Position numbers and translations under genes: made by a program | Notes under the pieces: generated by a model | What the model was told of the DNA's origin: nothing | Databases searched by the model: none | What the model saw: the letters and a program-made list of their open reading frames with translations, nothing else | In this document: positions 19,054-64,000 of the stretch, in pieces | Position numbering within the stretch: position 1 is the stretch's first letter | Layout of the letters: each line of letters begins with the position of its first letter | Source: Corallococcus sp. EGB | Lineage (GTDB): Bacteria > Myxococcota > Myxococcia > Myxococcales > Myxococcaceae | Length of the DNA stretch: 64,000 bases | Reading direction: 5' to 3' | Assembly (NCBI RefSeq): GCF_019968905.1 | Contig: NZ_CP079946.1 | Coordinates: 6,421,356 to 6,485,355 of the forward strand

Positions 19054-19057
19054 CACT

Positions 19058-19439: not shown

Positions 19440-19656
19440 CGGCCAGTGACGTCACCGTCTTCTTCGCCTGGCCCAAGCGATTGAAGTCCTGATTGCTCAC
19501 CGCCCGGCCCTGCGCGTCCGTGAAGGTCTTGAGCAGGCCGTCCGCATCGTACTCCTGCGCTTGAAACACGGGCTTTGAACCCTCGACGTTCGCCAACGTC
19601 AGTCCCATCAGGTCGCCCGCTGCATTGCGAGGACTTGAGATGGTCGCGGAGCCTTG
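19440..19656 (-). pseudogene. Internal RHS gene scrap
   Basis: About 70 codons match an internal part of the full RHS gene in this window (about 25295-25507). The fragment reads ATISSPRNAAGDLMGLTLAN, then FQAQEYDADGLLKTFTDAQG and FNRLGQAKKTVTSLAG. It differs at several residues (DADG/DPDG, NRLG/NGLG), so it comes from a related, not identical, RHS gene. It is cut by IS66 copy C on one side and by an IS3-type fragment on the other, exactly after GAGCCTTG. Confidence 0.88.
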
Positions 19657-20010: not shown

Positions 20011-20337
20011 CTAACGCTCAGGCCGACGCCCCGTCCTCAACTCAGTCTGCTCCAGCAACAAGTCCAAGTCCACGCGATTTACCCGCCCACTCCACTCCTG
20101 AAGATGGACGAGACACCCCCCTGCAATATCAACAGGATACACGTCAACCACCCCCTCCCGACACAACGCAACGTGCTGGCGCGCCACCTCCAAGCAATCC
20201 AAACAGAAAAGATACGCACACCCATAATCATCAAAAACAAAACCGAAATCACACGCCACCCCACCCCCAACACTACCCAGAATATGACGACAACAGGGAA
20301 TTGAATCTTGCAAACCATGAACACCGCACTCAATCAC
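20011..20337 (-). CDS. Putative immunity protein of the full-length RHS toxin
   Basis: The 108-residue protein starts at GTG 20337, three bases after the RHS stop, with GAGG at the end of the RHS gene as a possible ribosome-binding site. It is unusually rich in cysteine, with CAYLFCLDC and several single Cys, so a metal site is possible. The Asp/Tyr-rich stretch FVFDDYGC precedes it. Placement directly after a toxin tip is the standard position of an immunity gene. No family recognised. The region is lower in GC than the RHS core. A hydrophobic frame on the same strand (20079-20333) is a shadow. Confidence 0.58.
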   Translation of the reverse strand: MIECGVHGLQDSIPCCRHILGSVGGGVACDFGFVFDDYGCAYLFCLDCLEVARQHVALCREGVVDVYPVDIAGGCLVHLQEWSGRVNRVDLDLLLEQTELRTGRRPER

Positions 20338-20340
20338 GAA

Positions 20341-23300
20341 TCACCTCGGCGTCGGCGTTTCTTTGAACATCCCATAAACATGGCTTCGCCACTGCGACCT
20401 ATGCAGAGGAACCACTCCACCACCCGCCTCAATCAACAAACATCCAATGCTCGCACAGCTGTTAATTTTTGCCCCACCAAGCACCAGAGGACCGCGTTTC
20501 CCTCCATTCACAAGTGCTTCCGCCGCATCCAATAGTGCTTGTCCATCAGGCACAGTAATCGGCTCACCATACTCCTTCAGCTTAATTTTATCTGTCTTTG
20601 GATTAAAATCACGCACCACAGTCTCACCATTTTCAAGTTGAATCAAATGAACCTCTCTCCACTTGTCTCCGAATCGCAAGATCCACGTAAAATGAGGACC
20701 TGCCTTCCCCATAAAGAATCGACCAGTGACTGTACCGAACCCAGCCCCAGGTGTCTTGACAGGCGCACCGCCCATCCTCAAGTCGGGGGGAGGATTAAAT
20801 CTACTATCCCATACATTTCCACTTCCACTATAATATTCCCTCAACGACCCAAGTGCATTTTCTGACCTGGGTGCGATTTGCGGGACTGCATCCTCGGAAA
20901 GCGGAATCACCTGCCGAGTTGATCGGACACCTCTACCAAGGAAACCGCCAACTAGATCAAACGCACCAAGAAATCCGTGTGCATACCGATGAGGCTGACT
21001 TTCAAACTTCTCAACGACAACAAGGTTCTTAGTCGACCGTTCGAACAACGCGCGGACCGGGGAGATGGAGATCTTTTCCTCTCCCCGTATGGCCTCGCCC
21101 ACATTCACCAGGCCAGAAACAAACATGACGCGCGAAATCCAGGGGTGCGCAGCCGCAGGAATCAATGGGGCCGCATAGTGGCCGACGACCATTAGTCCAA
21201 GCGCACTAAGAGTCGGTCGAACAACATCGCGTTCCAAGTGCTTATTATTAACAACATCCTCTTCGTACTCGGCCGCAGCCGCCCGCAGAAAACCATGCAT
21301 CCTGGCTGCGCCAGCGTCATTCTGACGCTGCGCAGCCAACATATTTGCTGTTTGCCAAGCTTGCGCTGAACGAGCGGCACAGATACGACTATCCAGCTCT
21401 GCATCCGGTCCGTACTGCGCACAACGGGTCGCCTCGCCCGTCGGATCGATGAACATCAACGGATTGCCGCGTGCGTACATCCACGCATTCAATTCCGTCG
21501 GCGTGGCGAGATACGCACCCGCCACTATCGGATCCGCGGAAAGGAAACGGCCAACGGCCGGATCATACCAACGCTGCTGGGCGTAGGCGAGGCCCACATC
21601 ATCATCCCAGGCGTGACCGGTAAAGCCGACGCCTGCCTGCGTGGATGATGGAGCCGTATCATCGCGGTACCTACCCCAGACATCATACCGATGCTGAGCA
21701 CCCGAGCCACTAGCTGTGTAGCGCCCCACCGCACTACCCAAACCGTCATGAGCAATGCGTTCGGCCCCCACCGCGACCGCCATACTTCCGCCCTGCGTGT
21801 AAAGCAGCGCGGGCTGTCCTGCCAAGCGTTCCTCTACCAGCGCGCCGCCTGCCCAAAGATAGGCTACTGTCTGTGCGCCCGTCGTCCGCTCCACGCGCAA
21901 GCCGTCCCAGCCGTATTGATATTGCGTCGTGACGCTGCTGCTCTCTCCTGGCACTTCGGGAGCGACTGTCACCTGCGTCAGACGCCCTGCCACATCCCAG
22001 CCGTAAGTCTTGCCGCCGCTTCCGCGCTGCTCGGACGTCACGCGGCCCACCGGGTCCGTCACATACGTCGCCAAACGCCTCTGCGTCGGATCCGGATTCG
22101 GATCCAGCTCGTTGAGGATGGATTCCAATCCACCACGGGGGTCATGCGTGTAGCGCCAGTGACGCTGGGCCACCGCTTTGTCGAAGCCATCTGGCGTCAG
22201 TGGGCCGGCGTAGCCTAGGGCTGTCTCCTTCTCCTCCAACCGCGTTCCATCCTGAGCCAGCTTGTACAACACCGCCTTACCGTCGTCGTACTTCACACCG
22301 GTCAGTCGGTCAGCGCCGTCGTAGCCGTAGGTTGTCCGCTTCACCATCGCGCCCGGTGCGTCCCAATAGTCTTCCTGGGTCCGATTGCCCCGAACATCGT
22401 AGGAGTATTTGAAGAGGCTTTTCAGCTGTTGAGCCGACTCCAGTTCATTACATACCGCGTCGTCACCTGCATTCAGCACCGCGCTCAGGCGACCACGATC
22501 ATCGTAGCAGCGCCGCTCCACAAGGCCGCCGCCGATCACAGACTGGAGTCTGGCGCCACCGGGCTCCCAATCGAAGGTTGTCTCGCCAGCCGGGCCCGTC
22601 GCCGTGTGCAGCCGCCCCCTCGAGTCATACCCATACGCCACCTCCCCCGCGGAGGACGTCACTGTCCAACGCAGCCCCGAGGCAGTGTAAGTAAAGCTCA
22701 CGGTGTCCGAGTCGCGACTCTGCCTTTTCAACAGACGCCGTGCATTGTATTCATAGTCATTGACCAGCGTCTGTGTTCCCTGCGTCTCCGCCACGAGCCA
22801 CGGCTGGTCCGCCGCCGTGTACGCCAACGCCACCTTTGTCAACTGCGTATTTGCGGCGCTCGCTGTTCCCGGCTGGTAGGAGACCCGCGCCGGACGGCCT
22901 CGGCCGTCCATCAGCGTCACCACCGTGTCCTGATTCGCGTCCACTTGCGTGGAGACACCATTGTCCCACATCGTCAGCCACTGCGACGTCCCCCGCGTCC
23001 TCAAGACCTGACGCCCCAGGGCGTCATAGCCGAAGGTCTGGGCCGCCGTGGGGCTTCCCGCCGGGGGCGTGACCGAGGTCAGCCGCAGGAGCCCGTCATA
23101 CCGATACTCAAACATGCCTAGACCCGGAGGCTGAGCTCCGAGCAGTTCCCCTTGCGCACCTCGCGCGTAGGTCCACGTCTGGGGAGTTTCAGGAGCCTGA
23201 GCGTCAACTCCGTACGTCACCGTGAGGGGCTGGCCGTTCGCGTCGTATGTGTAATCAGTTGTCTCCCAGTTCGTGGACCGACCGTACTTGACGCGCCATT

Positions 23301-26300
23301 TCAGACCTCGAGAGTTGTAGAAGGTCTGCGTCTGCCTTCCGTCCGGATGATCCTGCCGTGTCACCCGACCCGCACGGTCGTAGCTGTAGACCGTCGGAAC
23401 CGTATCGAAGTTCTCGGTCTTCAACAGGCCATTCACATACGAATAGGTCGTCGCCAGCAGCCCTGCCTTCTGCTGCTTCGTCAGCGCACCCGCGGCATCA
23501 TAATCCCAGACGTCCGTATCCCGATCTTGCTTCAGCGACACCACGTTGCCCAACGAGTCAACTTCGATCTCGGACGTCCACGTGTCGGTCTTGCCGCCAG
23601 CGGTGTCCACGCTCGTCATTGTCGCCTTGCGTTTCACCCAGGCCGTCGTCGTCTCGTAAAGGTAGGACGCGCTGTCCGCGGACCATGACTCTGCCTGCGC
23701 CAGCACGCGGCCCCGGTCGTCCCGCGAGCCGTAGGTCGTGGTCGCCGTCCAGTCCGAGCCTTCCGTCACCTTCCGTGACTTCTCCCACGGCCCCTCCCAC
23801 GCGACCGTCAGCTCACGGTTGACATTGTGTCCCGTCACCGTCTCCTTCACCAAGCGGCCCCGCGCGTTGTGCCGTCGTGTCGTGACGATGTTCTTGTCCG
23901 TGCCGAGGACAGCCGTCTCCACTGTCTCGTGCGAGATCGGCAGATAGCCATAGGTCCATTGCATCTGCGGCGTCGACCCGTAGGCCGCCACCGTGCGGCT
24001 CAGGGGTCGTCCCAGGCCGTCGTACGTCAGCGTGCTCTGGTACCCCGGGTGCGGCCCCTTCTCCACTTCCACCCGGCCCTCGTTATCGCGCTCGTAGGTC
24101 TTGATGAAGTGCTCAGGGTCCTCCACCTTCAGCAGGTTGCCCGCGGCGTCATAGGTGCTGCGCGTCACCTCGTTTTCTGGCGACACGTGCCAATACATGT
24201 CGCCGCGCTCCGTGTAGCGGTACACGTCCACCGCCAGCTGCCCGTCCACCTGGCGCCGGGTTTCCAGCACCCGGCCCGCGGTGTCCATCAGGAGCGTCTG
24301 TGACTCCGTACGCGGCCCATTCTCCGTCTCAATGGTGCGCGCCACCGTCACCAGGTGCTGCGCGTCGTCGTACGTCCGTGTCTCCACGAGCGTTCGCGTC
24401 CGAGCATTGGACGTCCCCACAGTTCGCGTCGTGCGGGTCAGCCGCCCCAAAACGTCCGAGTACTCCATCACCTCCACGAGGCCCAGTTCTGCGTCCTCGA
24501 CGCGCGTGAGCCGGCCGGCATTGTCATACAGGCGCACTTCGTGCACAGCGCCATTCGCCCGCACGCTGTCTGTCTTCCCCGGCCGCCCCATCGCATCCAG
24601 TCGCGACATCACCAATGCTTGGTTTGCGGCGGTGCCGCCCAGCACCTGGCGCATGGGATTGCCCTGCGCGTCCAGCAGCACGGATTCCGTGTCGCCATCC
24701 CCGTAGTCCCACGACACGGCACGGCCCGCCTCGTCGTAGTCAATCTTTGTCTGATGCCTCAGCGAGTCCCAGATGGCCAGGGGACGCCCTTCCGCGTCCA
24801 ACTGGTATTCCACCTCCGTGAGGCCATCGACTGTGACACGCTCCAGACGGCCCTCAAGGTCATACACGTTGACGTGTACGTGGCCCGTCGCGTCCGTGGT
24901 GCTCTTCAGCTGGCCATTTTCATACGCGTAGGTCGTCGTCGCCATCCGCACCGGGTTACCCACGCGCACGGACTCGCTTTTCAACAGCCCATCCTCGTAT
25001 GTCGTCACCCGCAGGTGAGCGGACGTCGTGCCACCATTCTGGGCATCCGCCTGCGCCAGCGTCTCCGTCACCGTCAGGACCAGCGTGCCTTCCGGCGACT
25101 CGGTCTCCGTGTACGTGTACGTCCAGTTCTCTTTGGGAGTACCGGAGCGCTCCACGCTGAGCACCCGGCCCAGTCCATCATACGTCCACGCTTCGAAGAC
25201 GCCCGTCTCCGTCTCCTCGGAGCGCAACACCCGGCCATACGCGTCGAACGTCAATGTCTGCGTCAGAGTGTCCAGCCCTGTGGCCCCCTCCAGCTTCGTC
25301 TCCGTCGTCTTCGCCTGTCCCAGGCCATTGAAGTCCTTGTTGCTCACCTTCCGGCCCTGCGCATCCGTGAAGGTCTTGAGCAGGCCGTCCGGATCGTATT
25401 CCTGCGCCTGGAATACGGGCTTTGAACCCTCGACGTTCGCCAACGTCAGTCCCATCAGGTCGCCCGCCGCATTGCGAGGACTTGAGATGGTCGCGGAGCC
25501 TTGCCCCACCTTCACCGTCGACGTCGTCGGCAGCCCGAAGCGGGGATCCAGGTCGAAATGCACGAGCTTCCGATCCGAGCCCAGGCCCGCCACGGGCAGG
25601 CTGCCCTCCGGCCCCTTCGTCAACACCGCGTCCGTCAATTGCAGACTCGTGTTGGACGTCATGTTCATCACCCGCCCGGTGGGTGACTCCGTCTGGCTTA
25701 ACACCACGGGCTGACCCTTCATATCGCTCGGCCACTGCTGCTTCGTCAGCGCCAGCAGTGTCTGACTGCTGGATAGATTATTGGACGTGTTGAGTTGCAA
25801 CTGTACCTGCACCGCGTCCGGCCGCGTGACGGTGCGCTGCCCCTTGGCGCCGTACGTCATCGACAGCGTCCCGGCCATGCCAGTCTCCTGCACCGCCGAC
25901 ACCACCTCCTGCTTCGAGACGTGTGGGTGCGGCGCACCGGGCGACTGCCGGAAGTACCGGGCCGCGTACTGCACCGGGCCCACCGCCTCCACGGCGTTTC
26001 CATGAATCCGGCGCGCCACCGACAACTCATTGAGCGCCGCCCAGCGGTCCGTGGCACCCAATGACTGGGGCACGGGCTCGTATTCGTAGGTATAGATGAG
26101 GTACGGCGCTCCTGGCGTCCGCACCACACGCGTCAGGTTGCCCACGCCATCCCGCGTGAACGTCGACGTGTAGGTGCCTCCCTCGCCGCCGGTCAACGTC
26201 ACGGTCTTCAGCCACTGGAAGCCCTGGCTGCGGACCGCCAGCCGCAACAGCGGTGACACGCCCGGCGCCTGCAGGTCCACGGCTTCGTAGCCGAAGGCCA

Positions 26301-34401: not shown

Positions 34402-35243
34402 CGAGACTCCCCCTCGGCACGCGTGGGCACCCCGGCGGTGGACAACCGCTCCGGGTAGCGCTTCACGGTGATGTCCTTGCGAAGCTGTTCCACCCGTTCC
34501 TGCACTGCATCGTGGCGGGCTTGCGCCGCGAGCACGCCACGAACCTCCTCGTAGGAGGGCGTCACGGTGCGCGGAGCTTCCAGCGCCTTCGCCACGTGCA
34601 GCCCGAACGCCGTGCCGAACGGCGCGGACGGCGCGCCCGGCTTCAGGTCCGCCACCGCTTCGAAGAAGCGCGAGTCCACCTGCCCCTCGCGCACGGGCCC
34701 CAGGTCTCCGCCCCGGGCACCGGTGGCCGGGTCCTCCGACACTTCCCGCGCGACGAGCGCGAAGTCCTCACCGCCCACCACGCGCGCGTAAGCGGCGTTG
34801 ATGCGCGCCTGGGCCGCCACGCGCTGCTGCTCCGTCGCCTGCGGCTGCACATAGACCACGATGTGGGCCACGTGCACCTCGCGACGGGCGAGGTCCTCCT
34901 TCCGCGCCGCATAGCGCTGGCGCAGGGCCTCTTCAGTAGACGCCTTCGCGCCCACTGCGTCCGCGTATGCGCTGGCGAGCACCTCGCGACGGGCCGCCTC
35001 CACGCGGGCCGCGATCACCGGGTCCTCGAGCAGTCCCTCGCGACGGGCGGCCTCGGCCAGCAGCGTACGCTCCACCACCGCGTCCAGCGCCACCTCCGGC
35101 GTGCCGCCCTCCTGCTGCCGCAACGCGACGTCCGCGCGCGACACCGACGTGTCCCCCACCCGGGCGACTTCATCCCGCGACTTGCACGCCGCCACCCCGC
35201 ACGCCGCCAGCACCAGCACTCCCCAGACCAGCCCCCTCTTCAC
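34398..35243 (-). CDS. Parvulin-type peptidyl-prolyl cis-trans isomerase lipoprotein
   Basis: The 281-residue protein has a lipoprotein signal (LAAC, Cys15, with a second candidate VAAC at Cys20). An N-terminal SurA/PrsA-like helical chaperone part follows (VALDAVVERTLLAEAARREG, VEAARREVLASAYADAV). The PPIC domain spans about residues 115-220, with VAHIVVYVQP, GEDFALVAREVSEDP, GARGGDLGP and APFGTAFGLHVAKALE. These enzymes speed proline isomerisation and act as holdases for exported proteins. The GTG start overlaps the stop of the giant upstream gene, with GGAGG six bases before it. The 3' end overlaps the RHS gene. Lying between two of the largest exported proteins, it is probably their dedicated folding factor in the periplasm. 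Confidence 0.92.
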   Translation of the reverse strand: MKRGLVWGVLVLAACGVAACKSRDEVARVGDTSVSRADVALRQQEGGTPEVALDAVVERTLLAEAARREGLLEDPVIAARVEAARREVLASAYADAVGAKASTEEALRQRYAARKEDLARREVHVAHIVVYVQPQATEQQRVAAQARINAAYARVVGGEDFALVAREVSEDPATGARGGDLGPVREGQVDSRFFEAVADLKPGAPSAPFGTAFGLHVAKALEAPRTVTPSYEEVRGVLAAQARHDAVQERVEQLRKDITVKRYPERLSTAGVPTRAEGESR

Positions 35244-56200: not shown

Positions 56201-59200
56201 GACCGTCAGGGTGATGAGCCCCGGAGACACCACGCGGACCTGCGTGGCGGGCGTGCCGCCCACCGTGACGGTCGCGCCGCGCTGGAAGCCCGCGCCGGTC
56301 ACCTCCACCGTGTTGCCACCCGCGAGCGGGCCGGTGGCAGGCGACACGAAGTCGACGTGCAGGACCTTGAGGTAGAGGAAGCCACCGAACAGCGATCCTT
56401 CCAGGCCGTTGGGGTTGACCACCGTCACCGTGGCCGCGCCCTCCTCGGCGCTGGGCGGGGTCCTGGCCGTCAGGGACAGGCCACCCGCGGCGACGGAAAC
56501 GTCGGTCGCCTCCACGCCAGAGAAGAACACGCGAGCACCGGGCATCAGGTTCGAGCCCGAAAGCGTGACGAGGGTCCCGCCCTCCTGCGCCCCCGAAGCA
56601 GGCGTGAGGAACGACACGGTCGGCGGCTCCGCGTTCGCCGCGCGCGTCGTGAACCGGGTGAGGAAGGACGTGCCCAGCGTCCAGCCCTGGTTGGACGCCA
56701 GGTCCTTGTCCACCGTGAGGAAGTACTCCGTGGACAGCGTCAGCCCCTGAGGCTCGCTGGGACGCACCCGCAGCCGCCGGTCCGTGACATCCACCGTGAT
56801 GGGCACCACCGGTCCCAGCAGGGGGTCTCCCGAGCGCAGCACCACCGTGCCCGGCATGACGCTGCCCTGGTCAATCACCTCCGACAGGAAGACGTCGATC
56901 TTCACGCCCGTCTCCACGTTGGAGGACACGGGCACCTGGCGCGCGCCATCCTCCGGCGTGACGGACGTCACGACCATCCGCTGCAACCCGAAGCGCACGA
57001 GTTCCCGGTCCATCACCGTCACCGCGCCGCTCGCGGCCCCCACCACCTGGGCGGCGCGCGGGAGGTTGGCGCGCACGAGCGTCTTCCCCGCCCCGTGCGC
57101 GGAGAAGGTGGACACCGACAGCATGCCCTTCACCGGCGTCGCGTCCTGGTCCGTCAGCTCGCTGGTGGCGAGCGCCAGGTTCCCGGAGACGCTCACCGAC
57201 GCGAGCCCCGTGGTCAGAAGGTCCGCGCGCCGGGAGGCGTGCGACAACAGCGAGACGAGCCGCGGCGCCTCCGGCCGCGAGAAGTCCACCTCCGCCAAGT
57301 AGGCCCCTGCACCTTCGCACGCCACGAAGGCGCGCGTCCCCACGGCCGAGACCGCGCTGGCGGCACCAGGCACAGCCACGAAGCTCTTCTCCGGCGACAC
57401 CATGGGCAGCTTGGGGTTGCGCAGGTCCAGGATGCGCAACCCGCCGCTCCCGGCGGCAACGAGCAACAGGTTCCCGGAAACGAACACGCCCCGCGCGCCC
57501 CCCGCCCCCACCACGGGGACCGCGCGCACGCGCTGGGGCAAGGTCGGGTCCGACAGCTCCACCACCACCACGCCCGCGGTGCCATTGGCGACGTAGGCCA
57601 GCCGGTCCTTCACCGCCACGCCCAGGACCTCCTCACCCGGCAGGTCCACGCTGCCCACCACCTGCATCGATGCCAGTGACACCACCGAAAGCAGCGGTGG
57701 CATGTACTGATTCGCGCCCGTCGCATGCGCGGGCGTCAGCACCAGCGCGTAGTTGCCGTGGAAGGCCACAGCCGCCGGCGCGGCCGTGAAGGGCACGTGG
57801 GACAGGCGCTGGATGGCGCCGGTGGAGAGCTGCGCGAGAACGAGCGCGTTCCCCTGGCTCACCTCCTGGCTGCTGATGCCCTGGGCGCCCACAACCACCC
57901 GGTTCGTCGCATCCACCGCCACGGGCCCCAGTCGTCCGGAGTTGAAGGGGCTCAGCCGCGCGGGAGAAGGCTGCAGGCCCAGCTCCACCCTGACGGTCTG
58001 GGAAGTGCCCTCGTTGTTCGAGGGATCCTTGGCGGTCGCGAAGACGGGCACTTCCTGCCCAGCCCTATCGTTCGGCGCCAGCACGTTGAGCGAATACAGC
58101 GGCCGGCCCGCGGGCCCGGGCTGCGACTGTGTCGTGGAGTCCACGAACTGGCCATCCCAGTAGAACCCCACCGAGGTCACGTTGCCTGTGTTGTCCCGGG
58201 CCGCTGCCCTCAGGGTCACGAGGCTTCCGCCCGTCACCAGGTCGCCCGCGGGCGGATCCACGAACTCCACGTCCGGGGGGACGGTGTCGCTCACGGTGCC
58301 CACGTCCACGGCCGCGGACACGGTCTCCTGCCCGGCCTTGTCCACCGCCACGGCGGTGATGGCGAAGCGCCGGTTGCGGCTGCCCACGGGGGCGACGAAC
58401 GTCCCCACATAGACATCGGGTGATCCTGGGATGCCCGCGGGCGTCCGGGCGACGTCCACCCGCTTGCCGTCCACCAGGAAGATGACCTCCTTGATGCCGC
58501 TGTCCACGTCCTGGGCCATCGCCTCGATGCGGATGCTGCCACCGTCGAAGACGTTGGTTCCGGCGAGCGGCTTCCGGATGGCCACCGTCGGCTTCTGGTC
58601 CTCCTTCACCAGCACGTTCAGGGGCGGAGACCAGGCTTCGCGTCCCGCCACGTCCAGCACGTAGGCGGTCATGCGCGCCGTCTGGCCCGTCAACGTCGCG
58701 GGCACCCGATAGGTGAAGTCAAAGGGCCGCAGGTAGCGCCGTGACACCTCCGTGGTGTTGCCCTCCGGCCCCAGATGCAGGGCGACGTACGCGACCCCCA
58801 GACTTTCGTTGGTCACCTTCGCGGAGAAGTCCGCGTCGAGCCCCACCACCATGTCGCTCGCGCCCTGCAGCGCCACCGCCAGCGGCGGGGCCGCCACCGC
58901 GGTGACCGTCACTTCGGCCGTCTTCGTATTGCCAGAGGTGTCCACCGCGCGCGCCACGAACGTCAGCGCCTTGCCCAGGTCCGTCTTGGCCACCCGGTAG
59001 GTGTAGCGGTACGGCGCCACCGGCATCGTGGCCAACGGTGCGTCCGGCTTGTCCTTGAGCGTGAACACCACCGCGGCGACACCGACGTTGTCATCCGCCA
59101 CCACCTCCAGGTCCAGGTTCATGCCCGCGACGATCTGTGAGTTGTTCGCCGGAGTGAGGAAGCTCACGGTGGGCGGCTGCTCATCCGCCTGGACGTTCAG

Positions 59201-62200
59201 TGTCACGACCGGGGCGTCGGCCACGTGTCCGAACGTGTCCTTCGCGCGAGCGCGCACGATGAGAGGATGATTGGCGGAGCCGTATGGCAGCGGGACTCGG
59301 AACGAGTAGGGCTTCGCCGTGGCGGTGAAGCGCAGAGGGCCGTTCACCCCGCCTTCGACGACAGCCTCTACCCACGAAATCCCGACGTCATCTTGCGCCG
59401 CGACGACGAGGGCGAAGTCTCGGCCCTCGGTGAGGGTGTCCCCGGTGTGGGGCTGGGCCACCGCGACCGTGGGCGGGGCATCCGCGCCCACGGGCAGCAC
59501 GACCACCTGGCTGGAGACGACGTGGCCATACGTGTCGATGGCCTTTGCCTGGAGCGTGAGCGTCTGGGCGCCCGTCGGCACCGGCACCTGGAAGGAGAAC
59601 GGCGGCTGCGTCACCGCGCTCATGTCCGCGCCGTTCACCCGCAGCTGCACGGACGCGATCCCGACGTCGTCCTCGGCGGCGACGGCCACCGGCACGACGC
59701 TTCCTTCCACGACGGTCCGGCCATCTGGCGGAGACACGATGGCTACCGACGGTTCACGATCCCTCACCACCCGGAAGGGCTGGACGAAGGTGCCCTTGTG
59801 CCCCGACAGGTCCCAGGCCTCCGCGGCCACGAAGTACTCCATGCTCACGCTGCCCGATTCGGGCAGTGCGGGCGCCACCGCCTGCGCGCTGATGAGCGGG
59901 GCGTAGATATCCACCTCCGACGAGGGGAACGCGTTCTCCAGTGGGAAGCCCCCGGCGGTGTGGAACACCTGGAGCTCCGCGAGGCTGGGGCCCGCGAGCA
60001 GCTTCACCTGGCTCACGAAGACGTTGTCCCAGGCCATCGCGGACACGCGGAACGACGTCTTCTCCACCACGGCCTGACTCATGGTGGGGAGCAGCACCTG
60101 TACGGACGGCGGTTTGCTGTCCGCCACCACCAGGGTGGCGCGTTCGACGACGGAGGAATGGCCTTCCTTGTCGGTGGCCACCACCCGCACGTCGACGTAC
60201 GTCTGGGTCCGAAACCCATCCATCGAGATGAACCCCGGCGGAAGCCGGACGCGGCCTCCGTAGGACTTCAGCCGCGAGATATCCCGGTAGGGCGAGTCCT
60301 CATCGCAGCCAGCCCATTCCTGGGTGCCCTGAGGCCCCCCATCGCAGCCAAGCAGCTGCTGGTAGGCCGTGCGCACGTCCGTATCCACGGGGAACGGAAA
60401 CCCGTTGACGAGCCGGTCCTGCAGGACGGGAATGACCTTCCCCTGCGCTGCCTCGACCTTCAGGGCCGACTGGCCGTTGAGGAAGAACTCCACCTTCTCG
60501 ACGCCGGTGTCATCCCCCGCCAGGGCCTCCACGAAGAGCTGGATGCTTCCCTCGATGAGGGTCGCGTTCTGCGCGGGTGAGGCGAGCACGACCACCGGGG
60601 CCTGGGGCTTGCGGCCCTCCACCACGAGGCGCCCCACCCCCACCTTGCCGGCGGTGTCCGTCACCATGACGCTGAGCACGGACGGCGCGCCATCCCAGGA
60701 CACGGGCGGCGTGAACTTCACCTCGTGCGACACCTTCGCCTGGGCCGGAGCCACCGTGTGGCTGCTGGGAGGAGCGTCGCCGAAGACGGTCGTGATGCCC
60801 ACGACGCCCACATCATCCGTGGCCTCCAGTGACAGGGTGGCCTCGACGCCCTGCACGAGCCGCACGAGGCCGCTGCCCAGCTCCATCTCGGAGACGGACT
60901 CGACGGAGGACTGGAGCTTCACCCACTTCACCGTGGGCACCGTGTCCGCGCGCACATGAACGAAGGTCGCGGGCGAAATGAAGGCATTGCCCGCACGGTC
61001 CCGTGCCACCACCGTCAACGCCACGGGAGCGCCCGTGGCCGTCGGCTGGAGCACCACCATGCGCTGGACCGATGCCTCGGGGCGCGTGAACGACTCACGC
61101 GCCGCGCCGTCCACCAGCAGGTCCGCGGACTCCACCTCCACGTTGTCCTGGAACGACAGCACCACGGGAGTGGGCACGCCCGCGACGGCAGACGCTCCGG
61201 TGGCGGGCTGGACCACCGCCGCCACGGGCACCTCCAGGTCCCGCTGCACGCGCATCGAGGACACCGCGCGAGCCCGGTTCCCTTGGGCATCGGTGGCGAA
61301 GGCCGTCAGCACCGCCGTGCTCGGCGCCCACCCCAGCGCGGGCTTCATGAACGTGACCGGCTGCAGCGCCCGGCCCGGCGCCGAACCGGCGACGCTCCAA
61401 CGTGCGACAGCGAGCCAGGTCCCGGCCACCTCCGCCCGGACCTGGACCGAACTCCCTTCGTACACGAGCTGCGTGCGGCGGACGTCCACGGGAGCGGCCG
61501 GCGCGTTCCCGGACATGAACTCCACGTCGATTTCATCCACGGTCACGAAGCTCGCGGGGAAGCCCACGTCCACCTCGTAGGATGGCGCCTTGAACTCGAC
61601 CTCGCGGTGTCCCGCGCTCAGCGAGGCCAGGAAGGTCTTCACCTCCGCAATGGCCTCCGCGCCGGCCTTCAACCGGTAGCGGTACCCCACGCGCGCCTTC
61701 AGTGACTGACCGGCTGGCGGCGCGGACACCTTCAGCCTCGCGCGCCCGGCCTGGCTCCCCAGCCCCGCGGCGGGGGGCACCACGCGCACGCTCCCGGACG
61801 CCACGTCCAGTCGGGCCGTGCGCGCATCCCCCATGAGCCACGTCACGTGCGAAGCCAGGCCGTCACCGGTGGCACCCGGCGCCGCCACATCGAACGCCTC
61901 GGGAGTGCCCTCGACGGAGGTGGCCTCGGCATTTGCGAGCACCGCGAAGCTGGACGCCACCGCCACGTCGTCCCGCAGCTCCACCTGGAGGCGCTCGGAC
62001 CGCTCCTCCGTCAGGGCCGCGCCAGACGCGGGGACGAGCCACGCCACCGTGGGCGGGCCATCCGGCAGCAACACGCGGGTGAGGGCTTGTTCCGTGGCCT
62101 TGCCTGAGGCGTCCACCGCGCGAGCGGAGAAGACCAGGGGCTTGGACCCGGACGCGAGCGTCGGCAGCAGGACGGACACGGACGCGGTGACGAAGCTGCC

Positions 62201-64000
62201 GGGCGTAATGGTCGGCAGCGTCAGCGGCGTGTCCCCCAGGCGCGCCTCGAGCGACTTCACCTGCCCGTCGTCGCTGGCCTGCAGCACCAGTTCCACGGTG
62301 GAGCCCGCGACGCACGTGGCGTCATCCGGGGTGTTCTTCAAGGTCATCGTCAGCCGGGGCGCTTCACGGTCCACCTTCTCCTGCACTTGGAGCGTTACCG
62401 CCGTGTCTGCGTGGTTGCCGGCGGGGTCGTAGGCGCGCGCGGCGAGGGCGTGCGAGCTCTTGGGGGCCAGCGAGGAGGGCAGTGTCACGGTGCCCGCATA
62501 CGTGCCCACGTACTCACGCCTCAGCAGCACGGTGCCCGGGCCGAGCGGATCCGGGGTCCTCACCTCGTCGAAGCGCTCCTCGACGTTCTGCAGCAGGACC
62601 GGCGGTGACAGCGGGCTGCCATCCAGGAGAAGCTCCACGGAGGACACCCTCACGTCATCCCGTGTCTCCACGCGAAGCCCCAGTGAGCCCCCAGCCGCTA
62701 CCTCCACGGTGTTGGACGTAGGAGCCACCCGGCTCACGCGGGGCGGCTGGACGTCGCGCGTCACGGCCAGGGTGACCGTACCCGCGTCCGAGTCCTGCTT
62801 CGCCGTGTCCCGCGCGATGACCCCCACCGTGGCGGGCTGGCCCAGGTGGATGATGGGCGCGCGCACCACCACCGTCTGTGGCTGAGTGACGTCGCGAGCC
62901 GCGCCCGCAGCGGGCAGCGTCCCCTGCGGGATGCCGCCGGAGACGCCCACCCAGCCGATGACGCCGACGTCATCGCTGAGCGACACCGTCACGCGCACGT
63001 CCTCGCCTTCCTTGTAGGGACTCCCCGGCGGAGGGGCGAGCACCGTCACGGACGGGGGCGCATCCTGGACCACGCGAACGGTCAAGCTCCGCTCAGCGGT
63101 GCGGGCCGGAGACCCCAGGTCCGAGGCCACGGCGCGCAAAGTCACGTCCTGGTTCACGTCCGCCGAGGACAGCGGTACCTGGAAGGTGAAGACCTGGTAG
63201 AGCCCCTGCCCGGTGCCCTTGGTGAGATGGCCCACGCGCGTCGAGCCGCGGTACAGGTCCACCGACGAGAGCCCGACGTTGTCGGACGCCATCACCTCCA
63301 CGCTCAACGAGGAGCCGGAGAAGACCCGCGCGCCTTCCGAGGGCGACCGGAAGCCCACGAGCGGGGCTTGGTCGTCCTCGATCAATACCAGGCTCCGGGT
63401 CACCTCGGCCGTCTGGCCGCCGGAGTCCATGGCCACCGCGCGGAGCACCTCCGTGCGAGCGGCGCCCGTCAAGAGCAGTTCGAAGCGGTACGGCGCGGCC
63501 TTCAGGGTCGCGACCGGCGTGCTGCCCGTGCCCAGGAAGAGCTCCACCTGCGTCACGGACACGTCGTCCGCCGCGTTGACGAGCACCTCCAGCCGCGTGC
63601 CCAGCGTCGCGGTGGTCCCGGCGAGCGGACGCACGAACGCGACCGTCGGGCCGCTGTCCGCATTGGACTGGAACCAGACCTCCGGGGCGATGCCTATGTT
63701 GCCGGAGGCGTCCGTCGCATGCACCCGCAGGGAGTGCCTGCCCAGTGACGAGATGGACGTCTTGGGAATGATGAAGTGGGAGATGAACGACCCCACAGCG
63801 GTGCCGTTGCGCGCCGGGGCGGAGTCCGTGAACACAGGCTCGACCTTGGAGTCGAGGAAGAGCTCCACCTTCCGCACGCCGACGTCATCCTGGCCGGCCA
63901 CGGTGACGAGCAGGTCCTGCGTGGCGACCACGGAGGCGTTCATCAGCGGAGTGACGATGGACACCGCCGGCGGCAGCAGGTCCGGAGACACGGTCACGTT
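35240..64000 (-). CDS. Giant Ig/IPT/propeller-repeat surface protein (N-terminus outside window)
   Basis: At least 9,585 residues are visible and the frame is open at the window edge. Layout along the protein: about twenty Ig-like domains (64000-58000; pattern DDVGVxxVELFL, ending VVTAVAVD); then six large units of about 600-700 residues, each with a Big_5-like domain, two IPT/TIG domains (GPxxGGTxVxVxGxGF) and an LVIVD-type propeller (LAYVANGTAGVVVVELSDP), between about 57000 and 45650; a seventh unit without propeller; then alternating Ig and propeller blocks (44500-37550). The tail (37500-35240) has three Cys-rich modules, two carrying Asp-rich DGDS..DxPxDPGC loops that may bind calcium. 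The C-terminal 150 residues are low-complexity. The architecture is that of an extracellular adhesin or matrix protein. No catalytic domain recognised. Its start, signal peptide and promoter are not in the window. Confidence 0.88.
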   Translation of the reverse strand, partial: NVTVSPDLLPPAVSIVTPLMNASVVATQDLLVTVAGQDDVGVRKVELFLDSKVEPVFTDSAPARNGTAVGSFISHFIIPKTSISSLGRHSLRVHATDASGNIGIAPEVWFQSNADSGPTVAFVRPLAGTTATLGTRLEVLVNAADDVSVTQVELFLGTGSTPVATLKAAPYRFELLLTGAARTEVLRAVAMDSGGQTAEVTRSLVLIEDDQAPLVGFRSPSEGARVFSGSSLSVEVMASDNVGLSSVDLYRGSTRVGHLTKGTGQGLYQVFTFQVPLSSADVNQDVTLRAVASDLGSPARTAERSLTVRVVQDAPPSVTVLAPPPGSPYKEGEDVRVTVSLSDDVGVIGWVGVSGGIPQGTLPAAGAARDVTQPQTVVVRAPIIHLGQPATVGVIARDTAKQDSDAGTVTLAVTRDVQPPRVSRVAPTSNTVEVAAGGSLGLRVETRDDVRVSSVELLLDGSPLSPPVLLQNVEERFDEVRTPDPLGPGTVLLRREYVGTYAGTVTLPSSLAPKSSHALAARAYDPAGNHADTAVTLQVQEKVDREAPRLTMTLKNTPDDATCVAGSTVELVLQASDDGQVKSLEARLGDTPLTLPTITPGSFVTASVSVLLPTLASGSKPLVFSARAVDASGKATEQALTRVLLPDGPPTVAWLVPASGAALTEERSERLQVELRDDVAVASSFAVLANAEATSVEGTPEAFDVAAPGATGDGLASHVTWLMGDARTARLDVASGSVRVVPPAAGLGSQAGRARLKVSAPPAGQSLKARVGYRYRLKAGAEAIAEVKTFLASLSAGHREVEFKAPSYEVDVGFPASFVTVDEIDVEFMSGNAPAAPVDVRRTQLVYEGSSVQVRAEVAGTWLAVARWSVAGSAPGRALQPVTFMKPALGWAPSTAVLTAFATDAQGNRARAVSSMRVQRDLEVPVAAVVQPATGASAVAGVPTPVVLSFQDNVEVESADLLVDGAARESFTRPEASVQRMVVLQPTATGAPVALTVVARDRAGNAFISPATFVHVRADTVPTVKWVKLQSSVESVSEMELGSGLVRLVQGVEATLSLEATDDVGVVGITTVFGDAPPSSHTVAPAQAKVSHEVKFTPPVSWDGAPSVLSVMVTDTAGKVGVGRLVVEGRKPQAPVVVLASPAQNATLIEGSIQLFVEALAGDDTGVEKVEFFLNGQSALKVEAAQGKVIPVLQDRLVNGFPFPVDTDVRTAYQQLLGCDGGPQGTQEWAGCDEDSPYRDISRLKSYGGRVRLPPGFISMDGFRTQTYVDVRVVATDKEGHSSVVERATLVVADSKPPSVQVLLPTMSQAVVEKTSFRVSAMAWDNVFVSQVKLLAGPSLAELQVFHTAGGFPLENAFPSSEVDIYAPLISAQAVAPALPESGSVSMEYFVAAEAWDLSGHKGTFVQPFRVVRDREPSVAIVSPPDGRTVVEGSVVPVAVAAEDDVGIASVQLRVNGADMSAVTQPPFSFQVPVPTGAQTLTLQAKAIDTYGHVVSSQVVVLPVGADAPPTVAVAQPHTGDTLTEGRDFALVVAAQDDVGISWVEAVVEGGVNGPLRFTATAKPYSFRVPLPYGSANHPLIVRARAKDTFGHVADAPVVTLNVQADEQPPTVSFLTPANNSQIVAGMNLDLEVVADDNVGVAAVVFTLKDKPDAPLATMPVAPYRYTYRVAKTDLGKALTFVARAVDTSGNTKTAEVTVTAVAAPPLAVALQGASDMVVGLDADFSAKVTNESLGVAYVALHLGPEGNTTEVSRRYLRPFDFTYRVPATLTGQTARMTAYVLDVAGREAWSPPLNVLVKEDQKPTVAIRKPLAGTNVFDGGSIRIEAMAQDVDSGIKEVIFLVDGKRVDVARTPAGIPGSPDVYVGTFVAPVGSRNRRFAITAVAVDKAGQETVSAAVDVGTVSDTVPPDVEFVDPPAGDLVTGGSLVTLRAAARDNTGNVTSVGFYWDGQFVDSTTQSQPGPAGRPLYSLNVLAPNDRAGQEVPVFATAKDPSNNEGTSQTVRVELGLQPSPARLSPFNSGRLGPVAVDATNRVVVGAQGISSQEVSQGNALVLAQLSTGAIQRLSHVPFTAAPAAVAFHGNYALVLTPAHATGANQYMPPLLSVVSLASMQVVGSVDLPGEEVLGVAVKDRLAYVANGTAGVVVVELSDPTLPQRVRAVPVVGAGGARGVFVSGNLLLVAAGSGGLRILDLRNPKLPMVSPEKSFVAVPGAASAVSAVGTRAFVACEGAGAYLAEVDFSRPEAPRLVSLLSHASRRADLLTTGLASVSVSGNLALATSELTDQDATPVKGMLSVSTFSAHGAGKTLVRANLPRAAQVVGAASGAVTVMDRELVRFGLQRMVVTSVTPEDGARQVPVSSNVETGVKIDVFLSEVIDQGSVMPGTVVLRSGDPLLGPVVPITVDVTDRRLRVRPSEPQGLTLSTEYFLTVDKDLASNQGWTLGTSFLTRFTTRAANAEPPTVSFLTPASGAQEGGTLVTLSGSNLMPGARVFFSGVEATDVSVAAGGLSLTARTPPSAEEGAATVTVVNPNGLEGSLFGGFLYLKVLHVDFVSPATGPLAGGNTVEVTGAGFQRGATVTVGGTPATQVRVVSPGLITLTVPAGVFGPADVVVTNADLKSVVAPGAYLYTDLGVSSSVSRHVPTGVDDPRPSEKLPSQPPIKVALSGGFAWVLSPTNVFVSAMDAAQLREKSIHGALSLVDVSDPAHAALKGLAGIPPPYQPVALSVRGSYAYVVANGASLQYVDVAGEGVPSLLVFDAADPSQPVLKAIFPSVGVAKGLAIAGDLALMAAGTGGVALYSLQDPVRPVLLGSVTQFLFGGQKRSPSIEDVQVSGHYAVLTAKVGADERLLVVDLLKQDLPVMGELTGSSSDVTVSGRNGLRVSSESLRTLSLAQPMRPRDASPVVPLVRGMKFTNAAMGPHLGAASAYGPSALVQVLLASEPSRPQSVNAVDLYPATRLSDVAVDGGLLVATVKETVGRAGQPVAQEALSVVAMPFPLVTGSTPADGADDVIVTLPLKVTLNRPVANATNSTVRLVLLDGSANGEDVSVGVESAGTTVTVYPDGAGLLPGRTYQLRLDGLVGTDGAPMPGRYVAEFTTAVNADERQLCVKSVSPRQGPAGSRVQVLLTGTGLKSSRELEVYFNGNRADVVNINESGTEARVLAPEGKAGAATITVQRAGGQHVELIGAYLYVDPLDLLAVTPARGPSSGGTRVLLSGKGFSPGGTVEVRFGNKPAYDVRVLGLGLLEATTPDGLRGPVDVTLRQADPTNPGGFIEDTLVKGFTFDQPTGSAVPLSRALRDVAVTGDWAFAVGDHSLDVVSLSGRYLRGTKAGDSIPFDQRGGLVDLDKDGRDDRLAAHVDLPGEATSVVYVQGSASRPHLLYVGLVNRDTNDVAVRGSVAVVDVHDPLAGVSVLRTVPVGTHGVFGVDVHDERLMAAAAASGLRSFDISVETFPVHTADANPGAQAIAAWGRKAVVGTGARAADFKVTGGELQVWNVEATPILVPDASAPLSVQRMRMLGDVAVVAAGAEGLVLVDVSQPEPQRLATLDVQGFAWDVRLAGRLAYVAAGAAGVAVVDLNDVLNPKLLYHVIGTQGGDARAVAMAGGRLVSARDRGTLGWSLDFGDAAELSVASASVAEGDVVPTDLPSVLVSFSAAVDAASAIQAFSFTANGVPVPGLPLEVGSSEELRSTLTFRPSGPLPAGAVLTLHVSQAVHTPGNTASLIAPFSVSFRTADLAGAVPVISQVVPRVGPTSGGNRVEVLGSGFEPGVTVKVGGVAAQVVEWSPTRLRVMVPPGAVGLADVELTQLSGLSARRTGGYLYVAPLQVGTATPRFLNPRGNSKVTVSGNGFLPAWADALGATRVLVRGLPASSVSVTSFTELTALAPPGSFGAADVTLVSPDGLSRVRSTSKVGYGLAFSGEESVVSASPHALVANPADPFQLFVAAGASGNGNRFPRNYAGSLTGSGTIPESYRALVFDASKPGRPLASGVATVDPPDALVDRFFATRLGLLGKVDPPDVEVMPDSLDVAVRGGQLLVANGQSGLAVLDATQSLRLTLLGQAPLDKGSGDTPPLATRVLPTPTGAWLLSTGLTLDPKAQCPGRPKAHGTDGKLVLYDTRVPSDPLRIGELALGEDVFGATFAQGRAFVVTGVHEGVFNCATGAGPFDLPPPPEFSLIGHATGDHANPFEGYTPHGRLHVFASARPGATSKSILADSALTDVVVVDDVAIVAAADKGLLFFDVSKPQGPTLLKTLPFDEEMSNTPGHPQRLRLLGDMLFVAAAEGGVVLVDVANPLEPRLVSGGNVETALDVVAVEDRLLLAGGPKLTELAVPFLYVTGMEPARRSLVPPEGVALKVRFNRPLAAPSFTDSSVRLQLLPGVGGAPGDTVDVTLETNGAVLTVRPEEALLPGRDYQLSVDTSVTDQRGGALLMPFQLAFHTAAAGSRTPRIASVSRASASMAGGTLLTVVGEHFTGTSNVLVGGKPAAFTLISDTELSIVAPATTEAGPADLEVHDAGGPVAVLPSAVLYLQSLEGIGVSISPDHGPVAGSTTVSVSLSGPGLAPGTRVFVAPDWELVKDSQKLDVDVHDLSSLRFVTPQVDHPSLVPVWIARPDETPVQVGLFAYDLPVGSSLDLPGFPPRVASEISLRGDQLAVGVANSGFWGLELFDVKVEEHPLRLGGLSTLAPVRGLDLSGSLAFLAMDSMGLQAVDVSRPEKPFLVASGDTTGSLATSVRVEGESIYVGVTDPTAAWGGVRVFQGTGPRLVGVETVSLNSDVLALELGTDRFYSLTSSVAAGKGQGLTLSINTRSGSHVGHVAVLSGERTYEQLVSSRLLVRAGRAYVTVGTKLYVFDLSKETAPKVLQSSDLGSPVMGLTFVGGSLFASTSSGSTVIEVPPSELLAVELSPAPGSVVLSGQSIQARFSLPVKKETVTSATFQVDVNEGSGWSPYTSGAYDVVFATRGSTAVFTPDPGHPFAPGAQVRVRITTGVQGFDTRSLAAPVEALFTIAGPDASQPIITRLEPASGRTNVTTEVTLTGAGFRANGLTTVRVGGQAAAVTWKSPTELKVLVPPALAAVAGPAMVEVLDAPSGLVARRLGGFLYRDPLQLVALSPAQSPQQGGVQVKLTGHGFAPGMTVSFGGSPSFDVHVSSMELAEAKAPPHASGLVDVTLGLPDQPQSLGLPFLYGAGAVSQLPSLPVAHVLVEEGVAYAALGGETDVTNVDGSVYEQSKATTQGGLLIARLNDLPLLREEKTVTFTARGGGRRLAKAGSILYMAAGPAGVMRWNVATPASPTDLSSLPVTGEAYDVLVKDDLLFVADGAGVSMYRLGETAAPLPVGQRLLPGGARAMVLHGSHLVVADGNVNPSRLHVLDAAKGSLSEVGDGFALSMPASHLTMSGTRVFASLGKAKQVQLVELADPPHPASGGVLVLTDPLGRTWMSAEQTWVAGGVAYVSAGGGKVQRFSVPVGGMPVPLERMQVVGDARTAAFTGDSLLVGTLLLNAQGSPVELPLSQPPSGATSLVGSLSVVELDHLEVVGTTPFEGETVAVGTAPQVHVTALADLNTAQGVTLSRMTANGDELVNVARRVVATTRGSDVLLEPYAPLNPSAQYRLHVGSTLADLAGGKLGTDVDVRFKTASLVSAESPELTAVVPAYGLEAGGNKVTLTGEHFVPGCIVKFGGASSTGVVVAADGRSASVTVPEGVVGPAAVEIINPGGLSAMRLGAYRYLPEPALTAVSAMSAPFNSQTFIKLTGQGLFGSSRVYFGTVLAPVVELLSATELRVRVPDNVTGSVALRVATPGPDETELSAFWPTPFTFMLEEKGTFSPGADAMARVGDKLLVARGGRLVVRGLAANETLYDGNDVLGVPNATALTVSGDEAFLMGPGLLVRYALGACATAELDACRPQELERVYLEPQGVVPMAVVASRDAAYVAVAGGTEVSLLGRVNGELRVVAQTSLSGGTLRALERVQGALVLLVDQGNKSRLELRDFSDGQLTVKGTLEGLPAPAWSMAVQGNQVLMGLGTGIELVDATMPEAPTRLGHWDSQTPGNDALSVALSGPWAWVGGRTRLSWVDTTQPGAGVFQERTWAPATGVQGALTMVVGGVAVAANTSTMKTFHLPYPVTVATAPLPGGELPPGGTVSMTLSPFLPQVAASASTLVVKPVEGSSPVSGTALAGSGYLRGYTPSPSLSVGTVYVAEAQLAASGAVGGTLLGPWRFPVVGGADGTQMSLTSVVPDHGDVAGGTSVLLTGANLGAVSKVHFGGASVVPEPGQSATSLQVTTPASSVAGPVTVALEADRQPWLRWAGAFTYVAQPFVYSVTPSLIPLEGGTVTFTGDRFARGLAVFEDTEPTPTSVEIVSLTGTSLTVKVKEGPSGFVPLRLESPGSAPVSLASLVRRADLKPPAVVSWSPAGVQGGQSVPVTSQFTVRFSEPIAPASVAQAKLTRVLTGLAVEATVTAAADGLGLTLVPAAPLAQTTQYQLSVQGVTDLADNVLTQGGTATFRTVDGVPPQVELIEMGSGRTVVTGDRFSAGTPWTFEVRAADDSGQISGRKLSVNGQNVTGSNGLFTYTWPASSLGSSQLVAWAQDAAGNVTELPPITIQVVNDMPPTVTFTAPAVSQLTLEEGASLAVAVTATDNASVSSLELRLDEASLKLVLNPTGPLTYTLKAPRVGSGPETHALTARAQDNAQLVGTAAPVMLTVTPDTTAPVVAFLSPSANTRVVSGMPLDLRVSATDTNAVRSVRITKNGADLETLQGPNWLTQWTAPVVTQATQVTFVAHALDERGNEGVTQPLVVTVEPAEPPVISINSPLANESYTEGTQVTVVATLAAPAGVKEVRLSLDAQERILFEPPWQATFSAPPVDAAGGVAMVRAWVKDNAGIDATSARQINVVNSNAAPPTLALPVELEGPVFAGGASVAALATASQGATVEQQVFVSDAGIATGAVGNVLPLRPEGASVRVVARAVGLGGTVDAGVEGSLAEFAQGPAVRSALEGTANVTALAFQGADLFVLRDDAGGGAEVERRNRATGVLVSRRSLEGTPSGLAVLGDRLAVVLRSAGTGTLALLSAEDLSSSVGSSVALRREPTSVGAFRGGFVVGSDDGLELFDPKGVPRARLPLGNVTALSIQADWLYALADASLFAVDLTVPPAPKQVAQVQTAGVAVTALGGGRACVVGGAARCFTLSGNTLSLVGEKTLGVAATSVTALGPWLLAGSDTGLTVLDARTAPRIAGFYPAVQGRVSASGNTIAAAKGTSLSRLMLGRGPGAPQLTLALAATAAAGARLPLTATWSDGVVPLNAFTAELSVGGRVVQVLDNALPTSVDLPPVQGVVQVSLRVWDLAGNEAQASGTVTLVDAGSGPVLLSLNLPAAVLEGTEFLMRPEAAAPNQVDRVEVSVAGGEPVVFSAPAWAGMLRAPQVTVDGDVTVTAVAVDAQGRHGPAKQGSIRVLNDTGTTPGVLSLVLETPSSIVEGTRVRMVATTDPGTVEEVRFRLLGAGQQLLDQQRVKVKPYVASLLMPQVTGSTEVLVEAVAVDASGRTSAPYTTKLIVVDDTTAPTVKVDVEPSAGRIAAGSPLSSKVTAEATGGVARIQQVLTLNGALVAKGSGLLRYVVPESTPVGAELKLEVIVTSRAGLSPSLTPTVWKVVAPITSQQGTLFAQGFEGAEQVEVIEDRVYVRTATGFAVGQLTRGPVPSLTYLGRFTSASRPLSMAIRGNLVLLAYGDPGLDIVDASTVATARVVGHVEQSLAQVATFGKWAWASKGTAPLAYPKYIDLDEPSRPVVTNSGWGSGTVLAAERDGYIARLSDGRIQTLFRVGQWPTGVSDAAFYLPAGQSVIAAERDGNRLVVATDKSLYVREYWDGGTFSVPLGAAARALHVADGLAYVLCEDGFLRVVDVREPMSVAMLTTSAMEASDLQVSGELMLAAGASGIELRRLPQRLETVETTPSATYAATPAPLGLTAFHEGVLVAAGSSGLRQLGVSKPGTLEVLKPWSGSSVMQIEQAGGYLYALAGNSVLRMNDRGNGTIDSVPSSLGQLLGQVSRISVSPGRIWGLNGQRVSSLTLLPDTGAVSLSLNVAPVDVSGSEGKAAIALGSAGWTLVGVDGSGSLRRWATHSELPVQALALDDTMLVTGNASSLTIWKVTDAGGVLQKTVPTAGSVTRVRLHGRLAIVSEAASGVQLFDLTDPNVPRLVQTVPAGRADDAVVVGSDLVVADAYLGVRRFPVDSLRAAPSVRIALPLPGTEVLPGAEYLVMTQASGFGLNTAELLVNGQPVGVLDDIVAQAIPWIPVGSSAGTEVSLQVRVRSANGASALSEPVSIRVGAPVLPQRPLDLRFAYTRETYFSGELVTVYMNGQSVVAPGRIRLMLGGKLLAETVTQAENPSVTFSVRMPVTQVQVTEVLRAELVDGAGRPFSTETPVTINPTPVFTTKPTGLPTELRALPFENVIQSGNYYWGSGPYTLELLMDGVTVATAERLIPAANPLSVRHVLRIPQTRVGQKVSLTLQVRDPLGRTSGDTVEYTVKPASEPPSVAFTDVPDVARSGDIVGVRVEADDPNGENDIVSLRLLANGEEVASTTSAALYAEFVLPAAGPSNEVTLTALVRDRAGTEVPAAASIQALPNLPPEVALDISNSSSLYAGYPEEICVQVDDSGPLASVEIRLNGSVIKHEADCAHADCKNACVQVEHLPSSVTLSATAVDALGAVGVTPAASYVVGANNPPRVVLETSYLFAGQATTIRGRVADEWQSVDWVEFSLEGTPFRRIIGASSSGELGSNVTASVIAPVEGTHQLKLEARDYSGLNTSVSRNVYVVPEGSGQSCALPVPLKDSQTYLSWNYASDAPHYCNNEFYGTWVSLPFDGPLKSLTFEANGSAAIMEDCETGITYCFSEATPARTVYDVPAKARIFVGQPARYAEASVIKLISARLGQNAKCDPASTDFMCAAGTCEPDAQGVNRCHLPACMDGEDNEATPDHKVDYPFDPGCESPEDTSEDDPVPLPACSNGSDDDGDSLEDFPNDPACGSAAGTQEQPGNGESCQAPAVITSSVTAVSLSNATTDFTMTCAPPAPDRVYGFHLPDDAYVYAEASNANVALRSLCAVVKSELGCGALDADPYVSKELKKGTYFLVVSGTEDSDLFFSATLPSGAKCADAPDWLSCESGTYCLPTNGELRCRESACSDGENNDDGDSVKDYPNDPGCESLADDDETDPDVAPECSNDADDDGVNGKDFPRDPGCGSASGKKEGGGTGESCEGPQVITAEYTPVALVGATRDESLSCGAPLPDRVFGIYPPSSAYVTVVAPTASVEVRRRGCGLRSTAYSSYGVCSAGSGSMDGGAFARQSPEGGVLALGMPDGGIPDGGVLDGGTPPGGTPGGTSLVAHTQVQGVSDGGTPSLARLRVRADESFFILVSGAQDTTLHVTGELDWDGVCDPARPWFRCPGEETCQPDGAEYRCLEPLSLRGGSRESREDSVRGASPTRQRAKRPPGENGDAGVSNPASRQSDEPVDVPAIRIPRDEHAEAGGMPDAGALLASVVIGAGTNSLPWWGWEPGGPWRAMMAPVGGGAAGRMDVWSCGNGDCVGASVRGSSGGGQ

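Follow-up and report, generated by a model that had tools for sequence, protein, structure and literature searches.

The Corallococcus sp. EGB DNA analyzed here is a stretch of 64,000 nucleotides (the window; G000:C1:6421356-6485355) in a single-contig genome of 9.43 Mb, and it contains an operon in which the gene for a predicted RHS-type lipoprotein lies together with that for a giant exported protein. Comparison of genomes establishes that the putative RHS lipoprotein, with its swappable tip and the small gene behind it, is inherited as a unit with the giant and with two lipoprotein parvulins. These genes probably form a polymorphic RHS toxin system of one Myxococcota order with an obligate giant partner, which would display or dock the RHS capsule in competition or kin discrimination. 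Co-inheritance in all 35 genomes that hold the system hints that RHS toxins may be displayed or delivered in a manner not yet described.

The genes lie on the minus strand in the order PpiC1 > giant > PpiC2 > RHS > immunity gene. A first-pass annotation had read four of these within the window, and its coordinates are all confirmed, as are the ATGA overlap of PpiC2 and RHS (34398-34401), the GTGA overlap of the giant and PpiC2 (35240-35243), and the 3-base gap (20338-20340) that separates the RHS open reading frame (ORF) from the immunity ORF. The giant's frame is open through the edge of the window, with no stop there, and was assigned a start by eye at ATG 66577 (window numbering, here and below, continued past its end); the open frame itself extends further upstream. 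From this start the protein has 10,445 residues and a mass of 1.08 MDa, in keeping with the annotated surface protein of more than 9,585 residues, for which a surface location is likewise predicted. The four-gene operon with its own prolyl isomerase stands, and the block proves to be larger. PpiC1 is located directly upstream of the giant (66606-67514), and a divergent third PpiC gene, PpiC0, lies beyond it (67684-68649). Both had gone unnoticed, as had an orphan cassette with an RHS tip (4791-6782). Signal peptides and lipoboxes were assigned by eye. Long antisense ORFs at the locus are taken for ordinary artefacts of high GC (guanine plus cytosine) content.

Across 195 Myxococcota genomes the RHS family and the giant are found together in 35, RHS alone in none, the giant alone in two and neither in 158. 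RHS was called by a profile of its middle region, and the giant by one of its segments at E<=1e-40. The RHS profile is thereby matched in 35 of the 195 genomes, from 11 genera that all belong to the order of the window, and the giant segment in 37. In both giant-only genomes (G066 and G071) the contig ends inside the giant. Four genomes carry two RHS genes and also two giants, copies being counted among the three best candidates scored per genome. An earlier pass over 118 relatives gave 19 genomes with RHS, all 19 with the giant, and the giant is present in 12/12 genomes behind 13 of 18 named loci; the three sets of genomes overlap. That the RHS family recurs with the giant in 35 genomes, spread over 11 genera, indicates a pairing that is more than chance.

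The two genes are also physically linked. By hand count the giant segment is on the same contig for 27 of 39 RHS copies, in every case with both on one strand; the giant is upstream in 21 and downstream in six. For the other 12 copies giant and RHS lie wholly or partly on different contigs, and in one of these genomes (G159) the end of the giant segment is on the RHS contig. The order PpiC1 > giant > PpiC2 > RHS is found in 11/11 stretches that span both genes. It is kept in G158, with 5 kb from PpiC2 to the RHS match. A second order, PpiC1 > PpiC2 > RHS > giant, occurs in Myxococcus eversor (two copies) and M. qinghaiensis; at two of these three loci RHS and giant are separated by small ORFs. 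The first-pass annotation had named loss of synteny in relatives as a refutation of its proposal, which survived this check: what the relatives exhibit is strict co-occurrence, matching copy number and linkage in two gene orders.

The system is lacking in nine of 16 Corallococcus genomes. In all five of the system-free genomes examined the site is empty, the flanking genes lying 0.5-7.7 kb apart with no system genes detected between them. As they lack the system naturally, these strains with an empty site can serve for comparison. Where G000 and G006 carry the system at the same site, a flanking marker gene (thymidylate-kinase-like, by eye) is 95% identical, while the giant is 41% and RHS 42% identical. 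Over 11 genomes the pairwise identities of the giant correlate with those of RHS (r = 0.96, uncorrected for shared species history).

The giant begins with a sequence that resembles a signal peptide by eye, MERISTPRLRALALILALGCALPGLALAQ. In Pfam it matches Big_7, Big_5, TIG and LVIVD, with Big_2 below the cut-off, and iterated profiles give 33 Big_7, 15 TIG, 8 Big_5 and 18 LVIVD matches, numbers that fall slightly when it is scanned together with 13 other giants. From the N-terminus, an array of 21 Ig matches is followed by seven Big_5-TIG-TIG units, an eighth Big_5, further Ig and LVIVD-bearing regions and a cysteine-rich tail. LVIVD repeats, of propeller type, are found in the 290-430-residue regions before Big_5 in all but one of the seven units, and all seven regions may be propellers. 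Seven units with similar spacing are present in 14/14 giants of the first comparison, three of them cut at one end (G016, G066 and G071), and the same count in the giants of M. xanthus AM003 and M. eversor (second gene order) makes 16/16. Among the 14, three have an extra Big_5 earlier in the chain and two an extra TIG match. Identity between giants is 36-88% across 11 genomes, and length ranges over 9.7-12.7 thousand residues in the family. Binned along the chain, mean identity is 10-17% in the last bins. Constancy of the seven-unit architecture suggests constraint on the length of this very large protein.

In the single-contig genome G158 (L139-L141) a frameshift near residue 6080 divides the giant into pieces with five and two units, either a decaying copy or a sequencing error. 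In G026 (L075) and G059 (L078), and only these two of the genomes read, an extra ORF of 543 and 548 residues, respectively, stands between PpiC1 and the giant.

The RHS protein is composed of Ig-type domains, DUF6531, YD repeats and an RHS core. The RHS/YD repeats and RHS-associated core are those of an RHS-type polymorphic toxin, and the C-terminal 2,186 residues match solved Rhs proteins (best E 3.5e-13), type VI secretion system (T6SS) Rhs proteins included. A lipobox is recognizable by eye in 10/11 RHS proteins of the family, as VMGC in the present one, the exception being G091. The middle region is conserved over 1,100 residues; it has no sequence match to solved structures, and its structure model (predicted local distance difference test, pLDDT, 62) reaches a query TM-score of at most 0.12 for the best PDB matches among those shown, giving no fold. 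In M. xanthus AM003 (L123, 1784-6372) the N-terminal part of the RHS gene is spread over several ORFs, possibly by frameshift. The genome of the window has four other RHS ORFs of ~2,000 residues each, near positions 598000, 3030000, 3937000 and 7532000 of G000:C1.

Beyond the core the RHS proteins diverge, with identity dropping past the core end between close relatives. The last 150 residues are mutually unrelated at E<1e-3 in 17/17 tips, and the GC content of the last 130 residues is below that of the core in all 17. Here it is 0.505 for the last 219 residues and 0.535 for the immunity gene, compared with 0.671 for the RHS body. A plausible immunity ORF starts between -6 and +29 of the RHS stop at eight of the ten RHS ends read. 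The expectation from the first-pass annotation that relatives would carry variable tips is thus borne out, with small genes behind them. The last 205 residues of the tip are matched in four of the 195 genomes, the window's own included, and in the other three as short fragments that look like silent or decayed cassettes. In two of these three a homologue of the 108-residue immunity protein lies directly behind the tip match (46% and 40% identity, full length); the third gave no significant immunity match. Within the window, at 4791-6782 and behind insertion-sequence copies, lies the end of another RHS core, an orphan with a different tip that a small ORF overlaps. A conserved body with unrelated C-terminal tips, a downstream small gene and orphan cassettes are the features of a polymorphic toxin. 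One below-cut-off Ntox50 match was obtained, in the tip of G006, and no plasmid or viral relative of the window's tip was found. A permuted papain-like reading of this tip, made by eye, found no support and was dropped; by-eye guesses for the tips of relatives (HNH, deaminase and metalloprotease types) have no Pfam or NCBIfam support and are not claimed.

PpiC1 and PpiC2 are both PpiC parvulin lipoproteins, with lipoboxes assigned by eye. We take the histidines at the 'HI' and 'GxH' positions to be the catalytic histidines of parvulins. In PpiC2 they are kept at the 'HI' position in 10/11 and at the 'GxH' position in 11/11 sequences, and PpiC1 has neither in 13/13. The divergent PpiC0 is present in ten of the 13 upstream regions read (not seen in G066 or G071, and in G007 the contig begins too near), with the GxH histidine in nine of the ten and the HI histidine in two. 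Homologues of PpiC2 occur at 13 of the 18 named loci, the remaining five contigs starting within the RHS gene.

Our best reading of these data is a lipoprotein RHS capsule, exported by Sec, with an obligate giant partner that could act as a rod, adhesin or scaffold. Following export PpiC2, and PpiC1 in a holdase-like manner with its histidines lost, would help the giant and the RHS protein to fold. The RHS shell would enclose its own tip, as in solved Rhs proteins. As a long surface rod or adhesin the giant may display the capsule, or dock it on a neighbouring cell, at which the tip would be released. Siblings would survive through the immunity protein, which makes competition or kin discrimination the likely role. 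An obligate, co-inherited and copy-number-matched partner of ~1.1 MDa is a concrete, deletable candidate for display or delivery of this RHS family. More tentatively, the giant and the parvulin lipoproteins might be an apparatus dedicated to delivering the RHS capsule toxin, a rod of fixed geometry (the seven units), built and exchanged as a single genetic island and distinct from the T6SS, Tc toxins, contact-dependent inhibition (CDI) and outer membrane exchange. If so, it would account for the arrival at their targets of some surface Rhs toxins for which no delivery machine is known.

Several points weigh against a toxin system with an obligate giant. Surface location and contact between giant and RHS protein are predictions, and no outer-membrane export route was identified for the giant. 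The tip has no Pfam or NCBIfam match and a poor structure model (pLDDT 40), and its toxicity is presumed. No convincing immunity ORF follows RHS in G026 or G059. The correlation between giant and RHS identities is uncorrected for species history. The four other RHS loci of the genome stand without a second giant, there being a single giant match at E<=1e-40, and Rhs4 and Rhs5 of M. xanthus are reported as kin-discrimination proteins in PMC10433427, the excerpt of which mentions no giant (statements from this and the other articles cited refer to excerpts of their text). Taken together, Rhs4, Rhs5 and the four giant-less loci indicate that an RHS toxin need not have a giant partner.

This leads to the most serious alternative, that the RHS lipoprotein acts alone in the manner of other surface Rhs or teneurin-like toxins, the giant being an independent adhesin or matrix protein that is inherited along with it because adhering and killing together is advantageous. 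The giant-less Rhs toxins and loci just described are consistent with this. We nevertheless consider it rather unlikely, since this RHS family is found without the giant in 0/195 genomes, copy number is matched, and the linkage outlasts a change of gene order. Rhs4 and Rhs5 are ~4,000 residues long with signal sequences and C-terminal polymorphic toxins, are reported on Mx-alpha prophages, and function in kin discrimination independently of the T6SS (PMC10433427). By this description they resemble the present RHS protein in size, signal sequence and polymorphic tip. However, they are prophage-borne with no giant or parvulin partner mentioned in the excerpt, whereas the RHS protein here has both. 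The toxin part is therefore not itself new, surface Rhs proteins of myxobacteria being reported kin-discrimination toxins (PMC10433427).

Teneurin-like proteins are described as polymorphic toxins that are frequent in Myxococcota, where they are predicted lipoproteins, with immunity genes and with no obvious delivery machinery (PMC13018210). They share with the RHS protein a YD-shell, an Ig/TTR-type N-terminus, lipoprotein character and a variable tip with a downstream immunity gene. Teneurin-like proteins have NHL and FN-plug domains, and the RHS protein matches neither (Pfam E<=0.1, sequence models only); it has RHS repeats and a below-cut-off TTR_TEN1-4 match at the same threshold. We therefore do not place it among them. 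The word 'isomerase' is absent from the text of PMC13018210, as are isomerase, PPIase and parvulin from the first 300,000 characters of PMC3482391.

CdiA/CdiB systems comprise a large exported stick-like protein with a swappable tip, an immunity gene and orphan cassettes. The same features recur here, with the difference that the rod would be one protein and the toxin another. Pfam detected no two-partner-secretion domain in the RHS protein, PpiC2 or the giant, and no genome-wide search for a CdiB transporter was made. The VARTIG modules of Thermococcales also have a large Ig protein and a variable island organized like a polymorphic toxin system (PMC8416519). In those modules hypervariability resides in the Ig protein, whereas here the architecture of the giant is fixed and it is the RHS tip that varies. 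No description of a giant-RHS-parvulin operon was found in the open-access literature, screened by title and start of abstract with most subscription papers outside that scope. The overall interpretation of the first-pass annotation is partly supported.

SitA toxins are lipoproteins, and the lipoboxes of the RHS family could suggest that the RHS lipoprotein is likewise moved between cells by outer membrane exchange (TraA/TraB). This is improbable, as it gives the giant no role and the RHS protein of G091 has no lipobox. Even less credible is a co-inherited module for cell-cell adhesion or signalling, in which the RHS tip would be a recognition domain and not a toxin. The tips do vary as in allorecognition, the window's tip matches no family, and PMC13018210 leaves room for a communication role of teneurin-like proteins. 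Against this, the small gene that travels with the tip, the orphan cassette, the low-GC tips and the below-cut-off Ntox50 match all fit toxin and immunity.

RHS cocoon proteins serve in both T6SS effectors and Tc toxins. The core with its DPxG motif is shared with T6SS Rhs effectors, which are linked to PAAR or VgrG. No PAAR, VgrG, TcA or TcB family is matched by Pfam in the RHS protein, PpiC2 or the giant, in agreement with the first-pass annotation. The T6SS sheath gene VipB is present in 13/19 RHS holders tested, the window's genome included, and was not found in the other six, among them the single-contig G091 (two of the six are <90% complete); of the 21 giant-bearing genomes tested it was not found in eight, these six among them. 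A T6SS effector or Tc-toxin relative is the least plausible reading and we reject both forms: solved relatives include T6SS Rhs proteins and the genome has a sheath gene, but the required families are missing, the export signals are of Sec type by eye and VipB is not found in six holders.

Table 1. Features of the operon and its surroundings in the window (aa, amino acids).
Feature	Position	Strand	Basis
Giant exported protein, C-terminal 9,586 of 10,445 aa in the window	35240..64000	-	Continues to ATG 66577; domain matches
Seven units of the giant (aa ~2860-7241), each 290-430-aa region, Big_5, IPT/TIG, IPT/TIG	44855..58000	-	Profile matches
N-terminal Ig array of the giant, part within the window (21 Big_7 matches, aa 449-2837)	58067..64000	-	Profile matches
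C-terminal part of the giant, cysteine-rich and poorly conserved (aa ~9675-10445)	35243..37555	-	Identity bins, cysteine positions
PpiC2 parvulin prolyl isomerase lipoprotein, GTG start	34398..35243	-	Pfam Rotamase 3e-20; both conserved histidines kept
RHS toxin-type lipoprotein, 4,686 aa, ATG start	20341..34401	-	Lipobox VMGC by eye, Ig domains, middle region, DUF6531, YD repeats, RHS core
Conserved middle region of the RHS family (aa 1400-2500)	26902..30204	-	No confident fold
DUF6531 and YD-repeat shell to end of RHS core (DPxG motif)	21436..26847	-	Rhs_assc_core 1e-18; solved Rhs proteins, best 3.5e-13
Variable C-terminal tip, presumed toxin, 364 aa past the core	20344..21435	-	End low in GC
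Presumed cognate immunity gene, 108 aa, GTG start	20011..20337	-	Homologues behind tip fragments; GC 0.535
Orphan RHS core end with different tip (silent cassette)	5186..6782	-	6315-6782 has 84% DNA identity to the RHS gene
Immunity-like orphan ORF of 134 aa that overlaps the orphan tip	4791..5195	-	Placed by position alone, not by homology
RHS gene fragment adjoining an insertion-sequence copy	19450..19656	-	92% DNA identity to the RHS gene

Downstream of the operon, insertion-sequence copies (IS66-type by eye) stand between the live tip with its immunity gene and the orphan cassette. Two of these, at 17059-19439 and 11496-13876, are identical, inverted and 2,381 bp each, and a third, partial copy at 6778-8094 has ~98.7% identity. 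In G091 (L088) the main RHS gene is followed by two further RHS-matching ORFs of 765 and 862 residues, together with small ORFs and one ORF that resembles a transposase by eye; the stretch may hold a row of orphan tips.
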